Positions 49,565 to 57,932 of a DNA stretch of 64,000 bases are shown in pieces. The number at the start of each line of letters is the position of its first letter. Within the stretch, counting starts at the first letter, position 1. Source of the DNA: Halorientalis sp. IM1011 (lineage in GTDB: Archaea > Halobacteriota > Halobacteria > Halobacteriales > Haloarculaceae); assembly GCF_001989615.1 (NCBI RefSeq), contig NZ_CP019067.1:2418001-2482000 (forward strand), in the 5' to 3' direction. The position numbers were made by a program, and so were the translations under genes. The notes under the pieces are model-generated. The model was not told the DNA's origin. It did no database searches and saw only the letters and a list, made by a program, of their open reading frames with translations.

Positions 49565-50122
49565 ATGGCCGAACGTTCCGATCAGCGGACCCGCACGGCC
49601 GACGACGTCGAGGAGTCGCTGGCAGACGAGACGCTCCTCGACGACTCAGCGGTCGAGACGGGTTCCGAGTCGTCCGCGCCGTCCGAGACAGGCGGACGGG
49701 GAATCACGGACCGGCTCCGCGCCGCCGTTCGTGCGCCGTTCGGTGCCGCCGCGACGCGCCTGACCGCGCCCGTCGAGGGACTGTTCTCGATCCGGGCGTT
49801 TCTGCTTCTGGTCGTCACCAGTGTCGCCGGCATGCTGGGGGCGGGTCTGGTCCTCCCCTTCGGTTCGATCGCCGGGTTGCTCGGCATCGCGGCGGTGGCG
49901 TTCGGTGCCGGTCTCCTCGACGACCGGCGACGGTACGTCGAGACCGGGGCGGCCGGCGCGCTCGCGTCCGGGATCAGCTGGCTGCTCGGAAATCTGGTCC
50001 TGACGGCGGTCGGACCCGGCGTCCCGCTCGTCGCCGTCGGAGTCGGGTTCGGTGTGATCGCGGCGCTTCTGGGGCATTACTTCGGCCGGGATCTCCGCGC
50101 CGGCTTGACCCGCGAAATCTAA
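49565..50122 (+). CDS. Membrane protein with acidic N-terminus, function unknown
   Basis: A 185-residue protein. Residues 1-70 are hydrophilic and acidic (DVEESLADETLLDDSAVETG); residues 78-175 hold four hydrophobic segments (FLLLVVTSVAGMLGAGLVL, IAGLLGIAAVAFGAGLL, GALASGISWLLGNLVLTAV and VGVGFGVIAALLGHYF). No family function is recognised, although the pattern resembles small DUF456-like proteins. Its stop overlaps that of the ArsR-type gene by four bases (CTAA). Confidence 0.7.
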   Translation: MAERSDQRTRTADDVEESLADETLLDDSAVETGSESSAPSETGGRGITDRLRAAVRAPFGAAATRLTAPVEGLFSIRAFLLLVVTSVAGMLGAGLVLPFGSIAGLLGIAAVAFGAGLLDDRRRYVETGAAGALASGISWLLGNLVLTAVGPGVPLVAVGVGFGVIAALLGHYFGRDLRAGLTREI

Positions 50123-52448: not shown

Positions 52449-52473
52449 GCCCCCTCCACTGCCCTGTCCGGTG

Positions 52474-53361
52474 ATGCTCGACGAGCTGCTGGGGCGGGCC
52501 GACCTCAAAGACCGAATCGAGGAACTCGAAGAGGAGAAGCGCCACCTCGAACGACAGCTCGAAGCCGAACAGGAACGCCGCGCGGACGCCGCCAGCGACC
52601 GGCAGGAGGCCGAAGAGCGGGCCAACCGCCTCGAAGACCGGATCGCCGATCTCGAGGGGACAGTCGAGCGCCTCGAAGGCGAGGAGGGGTCGCTGGACTA
52701 CCGCCGCCGCGAACGGCTCCGGGGCGAGCGACTGGACGCCGTCCTGGACCGTCTCGAATCCGTCGAGACCGGTCCCGAGGGCGCGCTCACGTCCTACGTC
52801 GACGACGAGACGCCCGGCGCGGTGCGGGACGCCTTCGGCGAGCGGGCCACGCTGGTCGCCGAGGCCGCACCCTGCCTCGCTGTGACCGACGACGCGGGAC
52901 TCGTGAGTGCTGCCCTCTCCGTGCCCGCACCCCCGGACCCGTTCGCCGAGTGGGGCGAGGGCTTCCGGATCGACCGGTCGTGGTTCGAGCCCACCGGGGG
53001 GTTCACCCTCGCGCTGGTCCGGTCGGATCTGTTCGCCATGGGCGAGTACGACGGCCGCGAGCGGACCGCCTTCCACGGGTTCGACTCCGAACTGAAGAGC
53101 CAACACTCCAAGGGCGGATTCTCGCAAGCCCGGTTCGAGCGCCTGCGCGACGAACAGATCGACTCTCACGTCGACCGCTGTCTGGAGGCGCTCGACGAGC
53201 GGACGACCGACCCGCTGTACGTCGTCGGCGAACGCACAGTTTTGTCGGGGTTCTCCGAGGTTGCGGACGTGACCGCGACCGTCGACGCCACCGGTAACCC
53301 CGAACCGGCACTCGAGGACGCCTTCCGGGACTTCTGGACGGTCCGACTGCGGACTATCTGA
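52474..53361 (+). CDS. Vms1/Ankzf1-type peptidyl-tRNA hydrolase (VLRF1 domain)
   Basis: Releases nascent chains from tRNA on stalled ribosomes, related to eukaryotic Vms1 in ribosome quality control. The 295-residue protein has an N-terminal charged coiled coil (about residues 4-80, DRIEELEEEKRHLERQLEAE) and a release-factor-like VLRF1 domain (about 95-295) with the diagnostic QHSKGGFSQARFERLRDEQ (catalytic Gln within GGFSQ). No ankyrin repeats. ATG at 52474 is placed about 25-30 nt after an AATTTAAGC box (leaderless); the GTG at 52471 is ignored. The stop overlaps the convergent gene by 8 bp. Confidence 0.87.
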   Translation: MLDELLGRADLKDRIEELEEEKRHLERQLEAEQERRADAASDRQEAEERANRLEDRIADLEGTVERLEGEEGSLDYRRRERLRGERLDAVLDRLESVETGPEGALTSYVDDETPGAVRDAFGERATLVAEAAPCLAVTDDAGLVSAALSVPAPPDPFAEWGEGFRIDRSWFEPTGGFTLALVRSDLFAMGEYDGRERTAFHGFDSELKSQHSKGGFSQARFERLRDEQIDSHVDRCLEALDERTTDPLYVVGERTVLSGFSEVADVTATVDATGNPEPALEDAFRDFWTVRLRTI

Positions 53362-54394
53362 GCCGCGCCCCGACCAGTGTGGCGCTCGCGAGGACGATGG
53401 CGACGAGCGCGACGACCGGCGTGAACCCGGGACCGAGCGCGTTGCTCTCCGTGGTCGCCGCAGTCGTCGGTCCGGTCGTCGTCGACTCCGCCGTCGTTCC
53501 GGCCGCTCGCGTCGATTCATCGGGCGTATCGTCGCCCCTCTCGTCCGTCGATCCGTCGTTCGTCCCGTTCGGGGCGGCGGTGGCGTTCTCAGCGGCCGAC
53601 AGCGCTGTCTGCTCGACCGATTCGGGGAGGTCGGTGACCGTCAGCGCGACGGGGAGCGCACCCGTCCGGAGGACCCTGGACAGGCGTTCGGCGACGCTCA
53701 TGTTCTCGGCCGTCATGACGAACGAGGGATCGGCGGCGAACTCCCCTTCGTTCATCGTCTGGGCGAGGTCCGATCCCATCGACGCCGCGTACCGGACCTC
53801 CCCGTCGTCGACGGTGAACAGGCAGTACCCGCTCGCATTGTGGGGATCCCGGTCGGCGTCGGGCGGACAGCTTCCGATCCCGTCCTCGGTGAACCCGGTC
53901 TCCTGGAGTCGCTGGGAGTAGTTCCGGGCCGCGCCTTCCTCGATCGTAGCGGGAACCTGGGGCTGTCGGACACCCCCGCTCCCCGCGCGCGCCGGCCCGA
54001 CGTTCGTGAAGTCGTCGTTCGTCAGGAGCGTCTCCTCGCGGTAGACTGTCGATCCGTTCCCCTGAACGGGGTAGCGGGCGACGATCTCGATCCGGCCGCG
54101 GTCACGGAGAAGCGGAACGACCGTGTCTCGGTCCGCATCCGTGACGACGGCGACGTACCACGTCTCGTTCGCCGTCACCGTCTCGACGTGACCGTCGATC
54201 GCTGCCTCGTCCAGTCGCGCTTCGAGGACGGCGACCACGGTTTCGGCCGTCCCGTCGGAAACGTTGGTACCGATTTCGGCACCGACGACCGTCTCGTTGC
54301 CGTTCGCTTCCGTCTGTGCTCCGGCCGCTGGGGCGGCGAGGAGTGCGAGCGTGAACGCACTCGCCACCAGGAGGGCTGCTGTCGGGCGGCGCAT
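53354..54394 (-). CDS. SecD-periplasmic-domain-like protein with PGF-CTERM (paralogue 1)
   Basis: A 346-residue exported protein. Signal peptide MRRPTAALLVASAFTLALLA with alanine-rich cleavage (AAPAAGAQ). The mature region (about 30-260) carries repeated alpha/beta modules like the extracytosolic part of archaeal SecD: DRGRIEIVARYPVQGNGSTV, NDDFTNVGPARAG and the signature LRTGALPVALTVTDLPE. It lacks the six-helix SecD membrane domain. A Thr/Ser linker precedes GPGFTPVVALVAIV and a terminal RLR, a PGF-CTERM anchor. Adjacent paralogue at 54464-55783 has the same order. Overlaps the VLRF1 gene by 8 bp. Confidence 0.75.
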   Translation of the reverse strand: MRRPTAALLVASAFTLALLAAPAAGAQTEANGNETVVGAEIGTNVSDGTAETVVAVLEARLDEAAIDGHVETVTANETWYVAVVTDADRDTVVPLLRDRGRIEIVARYPVQGNGSTVYREETLLTNDDFTNVGPARAGSGGVRQPQVPATIEEGAARNYSQRLQETGFTEDGIGSCPPDADRDPHNASGYCLFTVDDGEVRYAASMGSDLAQTMNEGEFAADPSFVMTAENMSVAERLSRVLRTGALPVALTVTDLPESVEQTALSAAENATAAPNGTNDGSTDERGDDTPDESTRAAGTTAESTTTGPTTAATTESNALGPGFTPVVALVAIVLASATLVGARLR

Positions 54395-54463
54395 ACTCGA
54401 ACCTGATCCTGTACTAACACAAAAAACTACGGTGTCGCCGGGTACCGTTCGACCGGTCCGGCG

Positions 54464-55783
54464 TTAACTGCGCCGGGCGGCCAGCAGTACGGTGGTACCG
54501 AGGACGAGCGCGAGCAGGGCCGAAATCGGGGAAAAGCCCGGTCCAGTCGCGTCGGTGACCGCCACGACACCGTCGGAATCGGTGGTCGTAGCAGCGGTCG
54601 TGTTGTCGGCCGGTTCGTCGGTCGGCGTGTCGGCCGTCGCCTCCGTCGTGCTGTCGGTCGGTTCGTCGGTCGTCGGCGTCGTCGATTCGGGTGTGTCGTC
54701 CGGCGTCGAGTCGTCGGGCGTGGCGACCGGAATCTGGTTCGGATTCTCGGGGAGTTCGTCGCCCGACGAATTGGCGGCGCGCTCTAGCGCGGTCGTCCGG
54801 ACAGATTCGGGGAGGTCGGTCATCGACAGCGGCACGGGGTACGCGCCGGTCCGGAGCGTCATCGATAGCTGCTCGGCTTCGCTCACGGTCTCGGTGATGA
54901 GGAAGACGGAGGGGTCCTCCTCGTACTCCTGGAAGTTGATCGCCCAGGCCAGGCCCCCGCCCAGCGATCGCGAGGAGACGATGTCGCCGTTGAAGTAGGT
55001 GAAAATACAGTGCCCTTCGGCCGCGTCGGGATTCTGGGCTGCGTCGTCCGGACAGCCCGTGACGCCTTCGTCTGTGAAGCCGGCTTCCTTCACGATACCG
55101 GCGGCCTCACGGGCCGACTCGACCTCGAGGAACACCTCGACGGTCGGCCGGTCCGTGAAGGGGCGACTTGCTGCCGCTTCCCCGACCCGGATGAAGTCCT
55201 CGTTTTCGAGGATCTTCGTCTGGCGGTAGGTGGTTTCACTTCCCTCCGTGACCGGGTAGTGGGCGAACACTTCGACGCGCCCGCGGTTCCGGATCTGCTG
55301 GGTCACTGCCGCGCGGTCCGCGCCCACGACGGTGACGTACTGCGTGCCATCGGCGTTGATCGTCTCGACCTCGCCGCCGACTCCCGTCGCGGCGAGTCTG
55401 GCCCGCAGAACGTCGACGACGGCGTTGCGGGTCCGGTCGGTCACACCTTTCCGCACCACGTTCGGCGAGAACCCGGCGGCGGCGAGACCGTCCGCGACGC
55501 CGGCCGCCGAGAGGTCGTCACCGTACACCTCGATCGTGCTGTTCTCGGGTAACAACCGGACCTGGTCCGGTTCGAGACTGAGGTTCGCAGCCACCTCCTG
55601 TCGGATCGTCTCGTTGGCCCGATCCCCCTCGAAGTCGATTCCCGTCGCACTCCAGCCGTCGATTTCGGCCCCGACGACGGTCTGGTTCGTGTTCGTTTCT
55701 GTCTGTGCTCCCGCCGCTGGCGTCGCCAACACGGCCAGCGCGAGCGTTCCCCCCACCAAGAGAGCGATTGCGACTCGGCGCAT
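54464..55783 (-). CDS. SecD-periplasmic-domain-like protein with PGF-CTERM (paralogue 2)
   Basis: A 439-residue exported protein. Signal MRRVAIALLVGGTLALAVLA is followed by a first beta-alpha module absent from paralogue 1 (about 50-115, QVRLLPENSTIEVYGDDLSA). The SecD-like part includes IRNRGRVEVFAHYPVTEGSE, ILENEDFIRVGEAAA and the hallmark LRTGAYPVPLSMTDLPESV. A long Thr/Asp/Pro linker (about 345-405) leads to GPGFSPISALLALVLG and a basic end, a PGF-CTERM anchor. Without the transmembrane RND domain it cannot be a Sec subunit; probably a cell-surface protein of unknown role. Tandem with paralogue 1 (69-bp gap). Confidence 0.75.
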   Translation of the reverse strand: MRRVAIALLVGGTLALAVLATPAAGAQTETNTNQTVVGAEIDGWSATGIDFEGDRANETIRQEVAANLSLEPDQVRLLPENSTIEVYGDDLSAAGVADGLAAAGFSPNVVRKGVTDRTRNAVVDVLRARLAATGVGGEVETINADGTQYVTVVGADRAAVTQQIRNRGRVEVFAHYPVTEGSETTYRQTKILENEDFIRVGEAAASRPFTDRPTVEVFLEVESAREAAGIVKEAGFTDEGVTGCPDDAAQNPDAAEGHCIFTYFNGDIVSSRSLGGGLAWAINFQEYEEDPSVFLITETVSEAEQLSMTLRTGAYPVPLSMTDLPESVRTTALERAANSSGDELPENPNQIPVATPDDSTPDDTPESTTPTTDEPTDSTTEATADTPTDEPADNTTAATTTDSDGVVAVTDATGPGFSPISALLALVLGTTVLLAARRS

Positions 55784-55854: not shown

Positions 55855-56868
55855 ATGAACGTCGCCGTTCTCGCTCACGAGCGGTTCCCCGACCGCGCCA
55901 AGACCGCCGTCGGCGTCCTCCGGTACGCCGACTACGACGTCACAGCCGTCCTCGACCGCGACCGCGCGGGCGAGCGCGTCGCCGATCACCTCCCGGCCGT
56001 ACAGGACGCCCCGATCGTCGCAGGGATCGACGACGTTCCCGACCCCGTCGACGCGCTGGTGATCGGGATCGCCCCCATCGGCGGTGGCTTCGACGAGTCC
56101 TGGCGGCCGGACGTGCGCGGCGCCATCGAACGCGGCTGTGACGTGCTCTCTGGCCTGCACTACTACCTCGCCGCCGACGAGGAGTTCGCTGCCCTCGCGG
56201 ACGACCACGGCGTCGACCTCCGTGACCTGCGCCGGCCACCCGAAGACCTCACGGTCGCCGAGGGACGGGCCCGCGAAGTCGACGCCGACGTGGTCGCGAC
56301 CGTTGGCACGGACTGCTCGACGGGGAAGATGACGACGAGCGTCGAACTCGTCGAAGCCGCTCGCCAGCGCGGGATCGACGCCGCCCTGATCCCGACGGGT
56401 CAGACCGGCGTCCTGATCGAGGACTGGGGGATCGTCGTCGACCGCGTCGCGAGCGACTTCGTCGCCGGGGCGATCGAGCGGATGGTCAGCGAGCGCGGCG
56501 ACGATCACGACCTGCTGGTCGTCGAAGGGCAGGGCTCGATCACCCACCCGGCCTACTCCGCCGTGACCTGCGGGATCCTCCACGGCGCGATGCCCGACGG
56601 ACTCGTCCTCTGTCACGAGGCCGGCCGCGAACGGATCCACGGCTACGAGTCCTTCGAGATACCGCCGGTCCCCGAAGTCGCCGGCCTCTACGAGGACCTC
56701 GCTGCGCCCGTCGCCGAGACCACCGTGGCCGCGGGATCGCTGAACACCCGCGGGCTGGACGACGCCGAGGCCAACCAGGCGGTCATCGAGTACGCGACGG
56801 CCATCGACGCGCCAGCGACCGACCCCGTCCGATTCGGTGCGGACGAACTGCTGGACGCCCTGCTCTGA
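55855..56868 (+). CDS. DUF1611 / DgcN-like protein
   Basis: A 337-residue protein of the DUF1611 family. The N-terminal half (1-125) is Rossmann-like (VVLTDRDRAG, GIAPIGGGFDESWRPDVRGA); the C-terminal half (125-337) contains a P-loop VATVGTDCSTGKMTTSVELV and VVEGQGSITHPAYSAVTCG. In bacteria the related DgcN works with the epimerase DgcA in D-glutamate catabolism through N-acetyl-glutamate. The adjacent gene here is an enolase-superfamily epimerase, 8 bp downstream, as expected for that pair. Whether the substrate is D-glutamate or a dipeptide is not shown by sequence. Confidence 0.85.
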   Translation: MNVAVLAHERFPDRAKTAVGVLRYADYDVTAVLDRDRAGERVADHLPAVQDAPIVAGIDDVPDPVDALVIGIAPIGGGFDESWRPDVRGAIERGCDVLSGLHYYLAADEEFAALADDHGVDLRDLRRPPEDLTVAEGRAREVDADVVATVGTDCSTGKMTTSVELVEAARQRGIDAALIPTGQTGVLIEDWGIVVDRVASDFVAGAIERMVSERGDDHDLLVVEGQGSITHPAYSAVTCGILHGAMPDGLVLCHEAGRERIHGYESFEIPPVPEVAGLYEDLAAPVAETTVAAGSLNTRGLDDAEANQAVIEYATAIDAPATDPVRFGADELLDALL

Positions 56869-56876
56869 CCACTACC

Positions 56877-57932
56877 ATGACCCTCACCACCGACTTCGAG
56901 TGGCACGACATCGAACTCGACACACCATTCGGCATCTCGCGGGGTACCACGACGGTCTCGGCGAACCTCGTCGTCCGGATCGAGGACGACGCGGGGAATC
57001 AGGGGGTCGGCGGCGCAGCCCCCGCGGACTACTTCAGCCCGTCCCGCGAGGAGATCACCGAGGCGCTGCCCGACCTGCTCTCGGCGGTCGCGGACTGCGA
57101 CCCGTCGAATCGCCAGCGCATCGCGACCCGACTTGCCCAGGTCGCAGCCGACATCGCCGGCGGCCCCGCCTCGCTCCCCGGAGCCCGCGCGGCGGTCGAC
57201 GTCGCGCTCGCGGACCTGGCAGCCAAGCGGGTCGATCTGCCACTCTACCGCCTCTTCGGACTCGACCCCGGTCGGTCGGTCACCTCCTCGTTCACGGTTG
57301 GGATCGACGACACCGACCGGATGGCCCAGCGTGCGGCCAGCGCGGCCGAGACCTACGAGATCCTGAAACTCAAACTCGGGACCGACCGGGACCGGGAGAT
57401 CGTCCGGGCCGTGCGCGACCGTGTCCCCGACGCGACGATCCGGGTGGACGCCAACGGCGCGTGGGACGCCGAGGAAGCCGTCGAGACGAGCCGATTTCTC
57501 GCCGACCACGACGTCGAGTTCGTCGAGCAACCCGTTCCCGCCGACGACCTCGACGGACTGGCCCGCGTCAGCGCGGAGGGGCCGCTCCCGGTCGCCGCCG
57601 ACGAGAGCTGTGTGGTCCCCGAAGACGTGCCCCGCGTCGCAGCGGCCGCCGACATCGCGGTCCTGAAACTCACGAAAAGCGGCGGGCTCTGGCCCGTGGT
57701 CGAGATGTGTCACGCCGCCCGCGCGTGCGGACTGGACGTGATGCTCGGCTGTATGACCGAGACGAACGCCTCCATCGCGGCCGCGGCCCACCTCACGCCA
57801 CTGGTCGACTACGCCGACCTCGATGGCTCGCTGTTGCTCGCGGATGATACCTTCGAAGGAATCGAAATGCCCGGCGGCCGAATCGACCTCTCGGGCGTGG
57901 AGCGAGCGGGGACGGGCGCGCGGGAGAAGTAA
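56877..57932 (+). CDS. Dipeptide/N-acyl amino acid epimerase (enolase superfamily, DgcA-like)
   Basis: A 351-residue member of the mandelate racemase/muconate cycloisomerase group. N-terminal capping domain (1-110) and TIM barrel with the catalytic set: the Lys pair in EILKLKLGTDRDREIV, metal ligands in VDANGAWDAEEAV, EQPVPADDLDGL and ADESCVVPEDV, and the C-terminal Lys in AVLKLTKSGGLWPVV. The KxK arrangement fits L-Ala-D/L-Glu-type epimerases and DgcA. It follows the DUF1611 gene with 8 bp between, so they form an operon. Confidence 0.88.
   Translation: MTLTTDFEWHDIELDTPFGISRGTTTVSANLVVRIEDDAGNQGVGGAAPADYFSPSREEITEALPDLLSAVADCDPSNRQRIATRLAQVAADIAGGPASLPGARAAVDVALADLAAKRVDLPLYRLFGLDPGRSVTSSFTVGIDDTDRMAQRAASAAETYEILKLKLGTDRDREIVRAVRDRVPDATIRVDANGAWDAEEAVETSRFLADHDVEFVEQPVPADDLDGLARVSAEGPLPVAADESCVVPEDVPRVAAAADIAVLKLTKSGGLWPVVEMCHAARACGLDVMLGCMTETNASIAAAAHLTPLVDYADLDGSLLLADDTFEGIEMPGGRIDLSGVERAGTGAREK

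Follow-up and report, generated by a model that had tools for sequence, protein, structure and literature searches.

Genes and architecture

The DNA analyzed here is a stretch of 64,000 nt from the genome of the haloarchaeon Halorientalis sp. IM1011 (NZ_CP019067.1, positions 2,418,001 to 2,482,000), and the whole stretch is called the window. On its minus strand, two genes separated by 69 nt encode stand-alone versions of P1, the extracytosolic domain of SecD (Table 1). Both open reading frames (ORFs), the upstream one for P0002 and the downstream one for P0001, were found where the original prediction had located a tandem of paralogues (53354-55783). The two proteins are 40% identical over 328 columns. 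As had also been predicted, both contain a signal peptide and a Thr-rich linker. The signal peptides, which were called by eye, both end in AxA. The linkers are rich in Thr, Ser, and Asp and comprise 54 residues in P0001 and about 74 residues in P0002, with Thr plus Ser fractions of 0.33 and 0.32. A scan for the bacterial promoter consensus yielded no match, as expected for an archaeal host, and Rfam yielded none between positions 50000 and 60000 of the window.

Relationship to SecD

The closest curated family for both proteins turned out to be NF006215, the NCBIfam family of haloarchaeal SecD. P0001 matched positions 134-350 of the 522-position profile (E 2.8e-43, 148 bits), and P0002 matched positions 59-349 (E 4.5e-47, 161 bits). 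The curated score of 666 bits was missed by both and reached by the cell's own SecD (676 bits). This SecD, the gene of which adjoins secF elsewhere in the genome, is 51% identical to P0001 over 237 columns and 37% identical to P0002 over 311 columns. A Pfam scan of P0001 and P0002 revealed nothing above cut-off, and PF22599 (SecDF_P1_head; gathering score 27 bits) was also not matched. However, the own SecD fails this score as well (13.8 bits) and a Halorientalis homologue (G080) passes it (27.3 bits), so the model is weak for haloarchaea. A sequence search against solved structures gave weak matches to SecDF (3aqo, E 0.014). The SecD-like motifs that the original prediction quoted for both proteins are present in P0002, but P0001 has RGRIEIVARYPV and LRTGALPVALTVTDLPESV in their place. 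The likeness of both proteins to SecD as such is far beyond chance, as judged from the NF006215 profile, the identity to the own SecD, and the structure.

The structures were predicted with AlphaFold2, using 26 aligned rows from the window and 23 named loci. A predicted local distance difference test score (pLDDT) of at least 90 was obtained for 254 of 439 residues of P0002 and for 229 of 346 residues of P0001, and most of the P1 region exceeded 90 in both models. Comparison with SecD P1 had been set beforehand as the refuting test, and SecDF P1 was the best match for both models. In Foldseek searches against the PDB, all matches at E<=0.001 were SecDF for P0002 (8/8) and SecDF or the holo-translocon for P0001 (10/10). 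VIA-align superimposed 184 residues of the P0002 model on 3aqo_C (Z 13.7, root-mean-square deviation (rmsd) 3.1) and 183 residues of the P0001 model (Z 15.6, rmsd 2.9), whereas the best non-SecDF chains had Z values of 7.9 and 8.4, respectively. The P0002 model consists of three blocks: a first ferredoxin-like subdomain (residues 42-113), the base, and the head. P0001 is devoid of the first block, yet it retained the P1 match, with a Z value slightly above that of P0002. The VIA-align rows with Z below 8.5 included Atx1-like metal-binding domains (at residues 42-113 of P0002), a CCA-adding enzyme, and Mesd. These matches were attributed to a general resemblance among ferredoxin-like folds and rejected; no cysteine is present in the first subdomain of P0002.

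Loss of the membrane motor

An alignment with SecD shows that P0001 and P0002 have no equivalent of the first transmembrane helix (TM1), the GLELSGGT stretch, the final PSLAQEFK strand, or TM2-6. In both proteins, the signal peptide takes the place of TM1 and of the conserved GLxLxGG stretch that precedes P1. SecD_SecF_C (PF02355), the resistance-nodulation-division (RND) membrane part with the proton-relay aspartate, was matched by the own SecD, but not by P0001 or P0002. Together with the missing TM2-6, this bears out the predicted lack of an RND transmembrane domain. P0001 also lacks the first ferredoxin-like subdomain, which is present in haloarchaeal SecD. Two cysteines of the head are invariant in the alignment, where they occur in all 16 stand-alone rows and all 30 SecD rows, and they were seen by eye in four further stand-alone proteins. 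They are the only cysteines of the window pair (Cys176/191 in P0001 and Cys244/259 in P0002).

A weak match to SecD_SecF_C (25 bits) was observed for a third protein of the own genome, in a frame of 930 amino acids (aa) (G000:C1:1279343-1279849, L003), which is probably an RND/MMPL-type transporter. SecD appears split over two frames in G024, G058, G107, and G125, probably by frameshifts or assembly errors. Two full SecD genes were seen in Haloglomus genomes (G047:C1:1230846-1231892, L052, and G049:C1:1262469-1263518). The first subdomain and base gave weak matches to open frames of about 860-900 aa, perhaps the tandem heavy-metal-associated (HMA) domains of metal ATPases.

Predicted membrane anchor

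By eye, the tails of P0001 and P0002 are tripartite, with GPGF, a hydrophobic stretch, and a basic end. A PGF motif followed by a hydrophobic stretch and a basic end has been described for archaeosortase A (ArtA) substrates (PMC7157517). The own genome encodes archaeosortase A (TIGR04125, 329 bits), in support of the predicted PGF-CTERM anchors, but both tails remain under the curated TIGR04126 (PGF-CTERM) cut-off of 24.5 bits (14.6 bits for P0001, no match for P0002). The tails of relatives from Haloglomus halophilum (G047) and Salinibaculum litoreum (G141) passed it with 30.2 and 28.5 bits. It is likely that P0001 and P0002 are held at the membrane by a lipid that archaeosortase A attaches. 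A lipobox cysteine after the signal peptide is absent from both, but was seen by eye in H. marina and Halovenus relatives. Across the detached P1 and head-only proteins, PGF tails, Sec lipoboxes, and Tat (twin-arginine translocation) lipoboxes all occur, and the predicted tether is N-terminal in some and C-terminal in others.

A conserved slot and its relatives

In 12 genomes from five genera (the own genome, L041-L049, L164, and L166), the detached gene is flanked by a gene for a VLRF1-type release factor on one side and by a DUF1611 gene on the other. At this slot, its frame is intact in all five genera and encodes a signal peptide, linker, and tail. In L164, one extra gene separates it from the DUF1611 gene, and in G145, it adjoins the VLRF1 gene alone. 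The slot was empty, with both flanks side by side, in 13 of 29 other genomes examined. The remaining 16 comprise one genome with the gene (G144), three with DUF1611 after a larger gap or one gene (G090, G093, G057), and 12 in which the neighbours differ or the locus is too short for a decision. A functional reading of the VLRF1 and DUF1611/enolase-type neighbours was ruled out because the flanks adjoin without the gene in those 13 genomes. The slot contains no such gene in 2 of 8 Halorientalis genomes and in many genera, and the window genome is the only one of these eight with two detached copies. The slot of H. marina (G077) is empty. In this species, a lipobox-bearing homologue follows a histidine-kinase gene and precedes secF-secD, which has the same orientation, by about 100 nt. 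This copy appears to be an orthologue that was relocated and acquired another anchor.

Table 1. Genes and features at the locus (window positions) and the H. marina copy (locus positions).
Feature	Position	Strand	Basis
P0002, upstream gene of the tandem, PGF-tailed stand-alone SecD P1 protein, 439 aa	54464..55783	-	ORF, profile, fold searches
P0002 signal peptide, residues 1-26, end ...ATPAAGA	55706..55783	-	sequence, by eye
P0002 SecD P1 region (base and head), residues 33-323	54815..55687	-	profile, alignment, model
P0002 first ferredoxin-like (HMA-like fold) subdomain, residues 42-113	55445..55660	-	alignment, model, VIA-align
P0002 P1 head, about residues 182-312, invariant pair Cys244/Cys259	54848..55240	-	alignment, model
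P0002 Thr/Ser/Asp/Glu-rich linker, residues 341-413, low pLDDT	54545..54763	-	model, composition
P0002 PGF-type C-terminal tail, residues 414-439: GPGF, hydrophobic stretch, RRS	54467..54544	-	sequence
P0001, second, shorter stand-alone SecD P1 protein, 346 aa	53354..54394	-	ORF, profile, fold searches
P0001 signal peptide, residues 1-26	54317..54394	-	sequence, by eye
P0001 SecD P1 region without first subdomain, residues 33-256	53627..54298	-	alignment, model
P0001 head segment, residues 159-232, candidate gene-conversion tract	53699..53920	-	identity comparison
P0001 Thr/Ser/Asp-rich linker, residues 267-320	53435..53596	-	composition
P0001 PGF-type tail, residues 321-346	53357..53434	-	TIGR04126 14.6 bits, under 24.5 cut-off
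VLRF1-type release factor, convergent neighbour, one slot flank	52471..53361	+	locus comparison
DUF1611 gene, divergent neighbour, other slot flank	55855..56868	+	locus comparison
Enolase-superfamily gene, next after the DUF1611 gene	56877-57932		locus comparison
H. marina detached SecD P1 with lipobox	L040:5809-6936 = L055:2743-3870	- (L040), + (L055)	

A family-wide search of 146 genomes with P0002 retrieved SecD nearly everywhere and detached proteins in some genomes. With the tail-less profile A4, a detached protein above 125 bits was found in 15 of 80 own-family genomes, which were hand-chosen and include all carriers known by then, and a detached protein was found in 3 of 80 genomes from other families of the order; neither set is a random sample. 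The three are a full-length P1 with a PGF-type tail (G195) and two head-only proteins with PGF-type tails (G358, G170). The profile search for other anchored SecD-like proteins that had been proposed with the original prediction thus found many. The suggested re-use of the domain at the cell surface was supported; it is not one-off and recurs in haloarchaea.

Several individual proteins were noticed. Head-only SecD proteins with a signal peptide and a PGF-type tail are encoded at L195:2849-3592 (-) and L196:3034-3690 (-), in two other families. Salinibaculum litoreum has a head-only Tat-type lipoprotein (L165:4242-4862 (-)) in addition to its slot copy. In a Halovenus metagenome-assembled genome (MAG; G108), a full P1 occurs as a Tat-type lipoprotein (L050:3136-4179 (+), also L070), the gene of which adjoins methionine-pathway-like genes. 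Fourteen divergent, weakly matching head-only or partial proteins (L197-L208, L210, and L211), all Tat-type lipoproteins by eye and mostly of 180-270 aa, come from many haloarchaeal genera, and the Cys pair is mostly absent from them. Six of the 14 were scanned, and some of these matched SecD families (best E 1.4e-13, weakest 0.019). Possibly, the 14 represent a wide family of surface head domains.

Repeated origins, mosaic heads, and selection

The starred branches of a whole-P1 tree (46 rows) force three changes between the labels SecD and detached: for the slot family, for the Halovenus Tat lipoprotein, and for the head-only Salinibaculum Tat lipoprotein, which nests beside Salinibaculum SecDs (99/90). 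A tree of the heads (57 rows) forces seven changes, which we think are a mix of new origins and conversions. A single origin of all detached copies was ruled out for the whole set by these two trees. Judged by the whole-P1 tree, detached P1 or head-only proteins arose at least three times, and the protein of the Halovenus MAG appears to be a separate origin from a Halovenus SecD. In a base-only tree, from which the head-only Salinibaculum row was left out, the 30 SecD rows stand apart from all stand-alone rows (98/98). However, this tree also draws in the Halovenus protein, which the whole-P1 tree places inside SecD. The base-only grouping may in part reflect attraction of fast-changing bases, and the program warns of long branches.

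A single clade comprising all 14 rows of the slot family is rejected by the head-only tree (a log-likelihood 58.3 lower; approximately unbiased (AU) test p 0.004), whereas the base tree does not reject it (AU p 0.45). For the shortest head segment, the AU test did not reject a grouping of P0001 with the P0002 clade (p 0.20). Two segments of P0001 resemble P0002: residues 1-42 are 67% identical to residues 1-42 of P0002, and residues 233-256 are 65% identical to P0002 versus 35% to SecD. In contrast, residues 159-232 are 70% identical to the own SecD versus 35% to P0002. The C-terminal part of the head is 69% identical to the own cell's SecD in P0001 and 74% in the G080 protein, compared with 55-64% among SecDs of different Halorientalis species. 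The bases of these two proteins, unlike their heads, are not closer to the own SecD; the G080 protein is 31-34% identical to its SecD in base and first subdomain. The base is the fast-changing part of the detached proteins.

These identities suggest that P0001 is a mosaic, the head of which may have become SecD-like through gene conversion from secD. Gene conversion is the best fit for the mosaic heads; the alternative, separate origins placed in one slot, is disfavored because it fits poorly to synteny. At identical residues, codons agree more often in heads than in bases, but orthologous SecDs show the same pattern.

Rough dN/dS values (nonsynonymous/synonymous substitution rates) were calculated by the Nei-Gojobori method for three orthologue pairs. 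For P0002 and its H. persicus (G078) orthologue, they were 0.163/0.406 in base plus first subdomain and 0.238/0.885 in the head (about 0.27-0.40). For H. regularis (G079) versus G081, they were 0.144/0.397 and 0.166/0.513, and for the more distant pair P0002 and G081, they were 0.391/0.638 and 0.176/0.47, respectively. The ratio is below one in all three pairs, and the detached gene is under purifying selection.

Proposed function and alternatives

P0001 and P0002 would be exported proteins that consist of the extracytosolic SecD domain P1, separated from the proton-driven membrane motor. The flexible linker and a lipid, most likely attached by archaeosortase, would hold P1 at the outer face of the membrane, where its head may bind unfolded polypeptide stretches that leave the Sec channel, as has been proposed for the SecD head. 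Binding of emerging unfolded chains is the most likely activity because the head keeps the SecD fold and the two invariant cysteines. According to published accounts (PMC6028853, PMC9508474), SecD P1 binds the emerging chain, which it then moves away with the help of the proton gradient; the exact role of P1 has been described as unclear (PMC8669966). A tethered holdase would limit back-sliding or misfolding passively, without a proton gradient. This role of a passive, tethered holdase for exported chains is the one that we favor, and we give it about an even chance of being correct. Homology, the predicted fold, the absence of the motor, conservation, purifying selection, and recurrent detachment and re-anchoring were observed, whereas we infer the attachment by ArtA, the nature of the ligand, and the activity as a holdase. 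As the tether can be at the N- or C-terminus, reach and not a fixed geometry seems to matter. The tethering at either end, the three kinds of anchors, the head-only forms, and the copy beside secF-secD together point to the head as the useful part. A wider interpretation is more tentative, namely that haloarchaea repeatedly detach the SecD head and re-anchor it with any available lipid anchor, and that some lineages track their own SecD by gene conversion. This would make the proteins a class of motor-less, surface-tethered export chaperones beside SecDF, which we regard as possible rather than probable.

Several results weigh against the holdase interpretation. The many family genomes without a detached copy show that the gene is dispensable, and the tails of the window pair score below the curated cut-off. 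The P0002 clade is on a long branch, which suits a changed function, and the C-terminal head part of P0002 is only 39% identical to the own SecD, without a SecD-tracking tract. This last result bears also on the idea that the detached P1 is a regulator or decoy of SecDF, which would compete for substrates or dock on SecF P4/SecD and thereby set the SecDF load. The P0001 and G080 heads, which track their own cell's SecD, and the H. marina copy directly upstream of secF-secD would be in agreement with this, but the base, which meets P4 in SecDF, is the fast-changing part, a contact of base and P4 is impossible for the head-only versions, and the P0002 head does not track SecD. We regard a regulator or decoy as unlikely.

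A new job for the P1 fold, as a surface ligand-binding or S-layer-associated protein without a part in export, appears similarly improbable. The long branch of the P0002 clade, the absence of an entire subdomain from P0001 and from the G144/G145 proteins, and the wide, divergent head-only Tat lipoproteins, mostly without the Cys pair, could be explained in this way, whereas the recurrent exchange of heads with the own SecD, or renewed origin from it, the conserved cysteines, and the secFD-adjacent copy argue against it. The patchy presence, with an empty slot in 2 of 8 Halorientalis genomes and many genera, and a base dN/dS of 0.61 in the more distant pair P0002/G081 might indicate decaying secD duplicates without function. 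However, the frames at one slot are intact in five genera and retain signal peptide, linker, and tail, and dN/dS is below 0.5 for both other orthologue pairs as well as for the head of every pair, which makes decay very improbable. A chance likeness of a different fold to SecD was refuted by the fold searches, the profile and own-SecD alignments also speak against it, nothing was found in its favor, and we consider it close to impossible.

Comparison with known systems

The role of the large outer domain of SecDF and its need for proton-driven motion are still argued over (PMC8669966, PMC9508474). The detached proteins are natural, selected, motor-less versions of P1 that separate binding from pulling. 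They can serve as soluble, folded test objects, among them head-only forms and one encoded next to secF-secD. If a class of motor-less export chaperones exists beside SecDF, the head is useful without proton-driven pulling. The detached proteins also widen the view of archaeal protein care outside the membrane, where ATP is absent. The sequence families and the fold are already known. We found no description of the architecture, its recurrence, the mosaic heads, or the move to the secFD locus in the literature searched, which excludes most subscription journals, and no account of detached SecD P1 proteins was found in open-licence PMC papers.

Stand-alone proteins with a PF22599 domain are annotated elsewhere; this model is matched by the G080 homologue, but not by the window pair. 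P0001 and P0002 have the P1 base and head and the Cys pair in common with the own and other haloarchaeal SecDs, and P0002 also shares the extra first ferredoxin-like subdomain, whereas TM1, GLELSGGT, TM2-6, and the proton-relay residues are missing and a signal peptide, linker, and tail are added. The best fold matches, the P1 domains of Thermus and Deinococcus SecDF (3aqo, 5xam, 5xan, 5xap, 5yhf), are about 13-22% identical and, in contrast to the window pair, parts of a membrane motor. With PGF-CTERM substrates, the proteins share the motif layout and ArtA, but their scores are under the cut-off, and processing is predicted. A parallel to a second SecD-type copy beside the main one is the duplicated SecDF of Streptomyces (PMC4139356), but the duplicates described there are whole secDF and secD/secF forms, and not detached domains.

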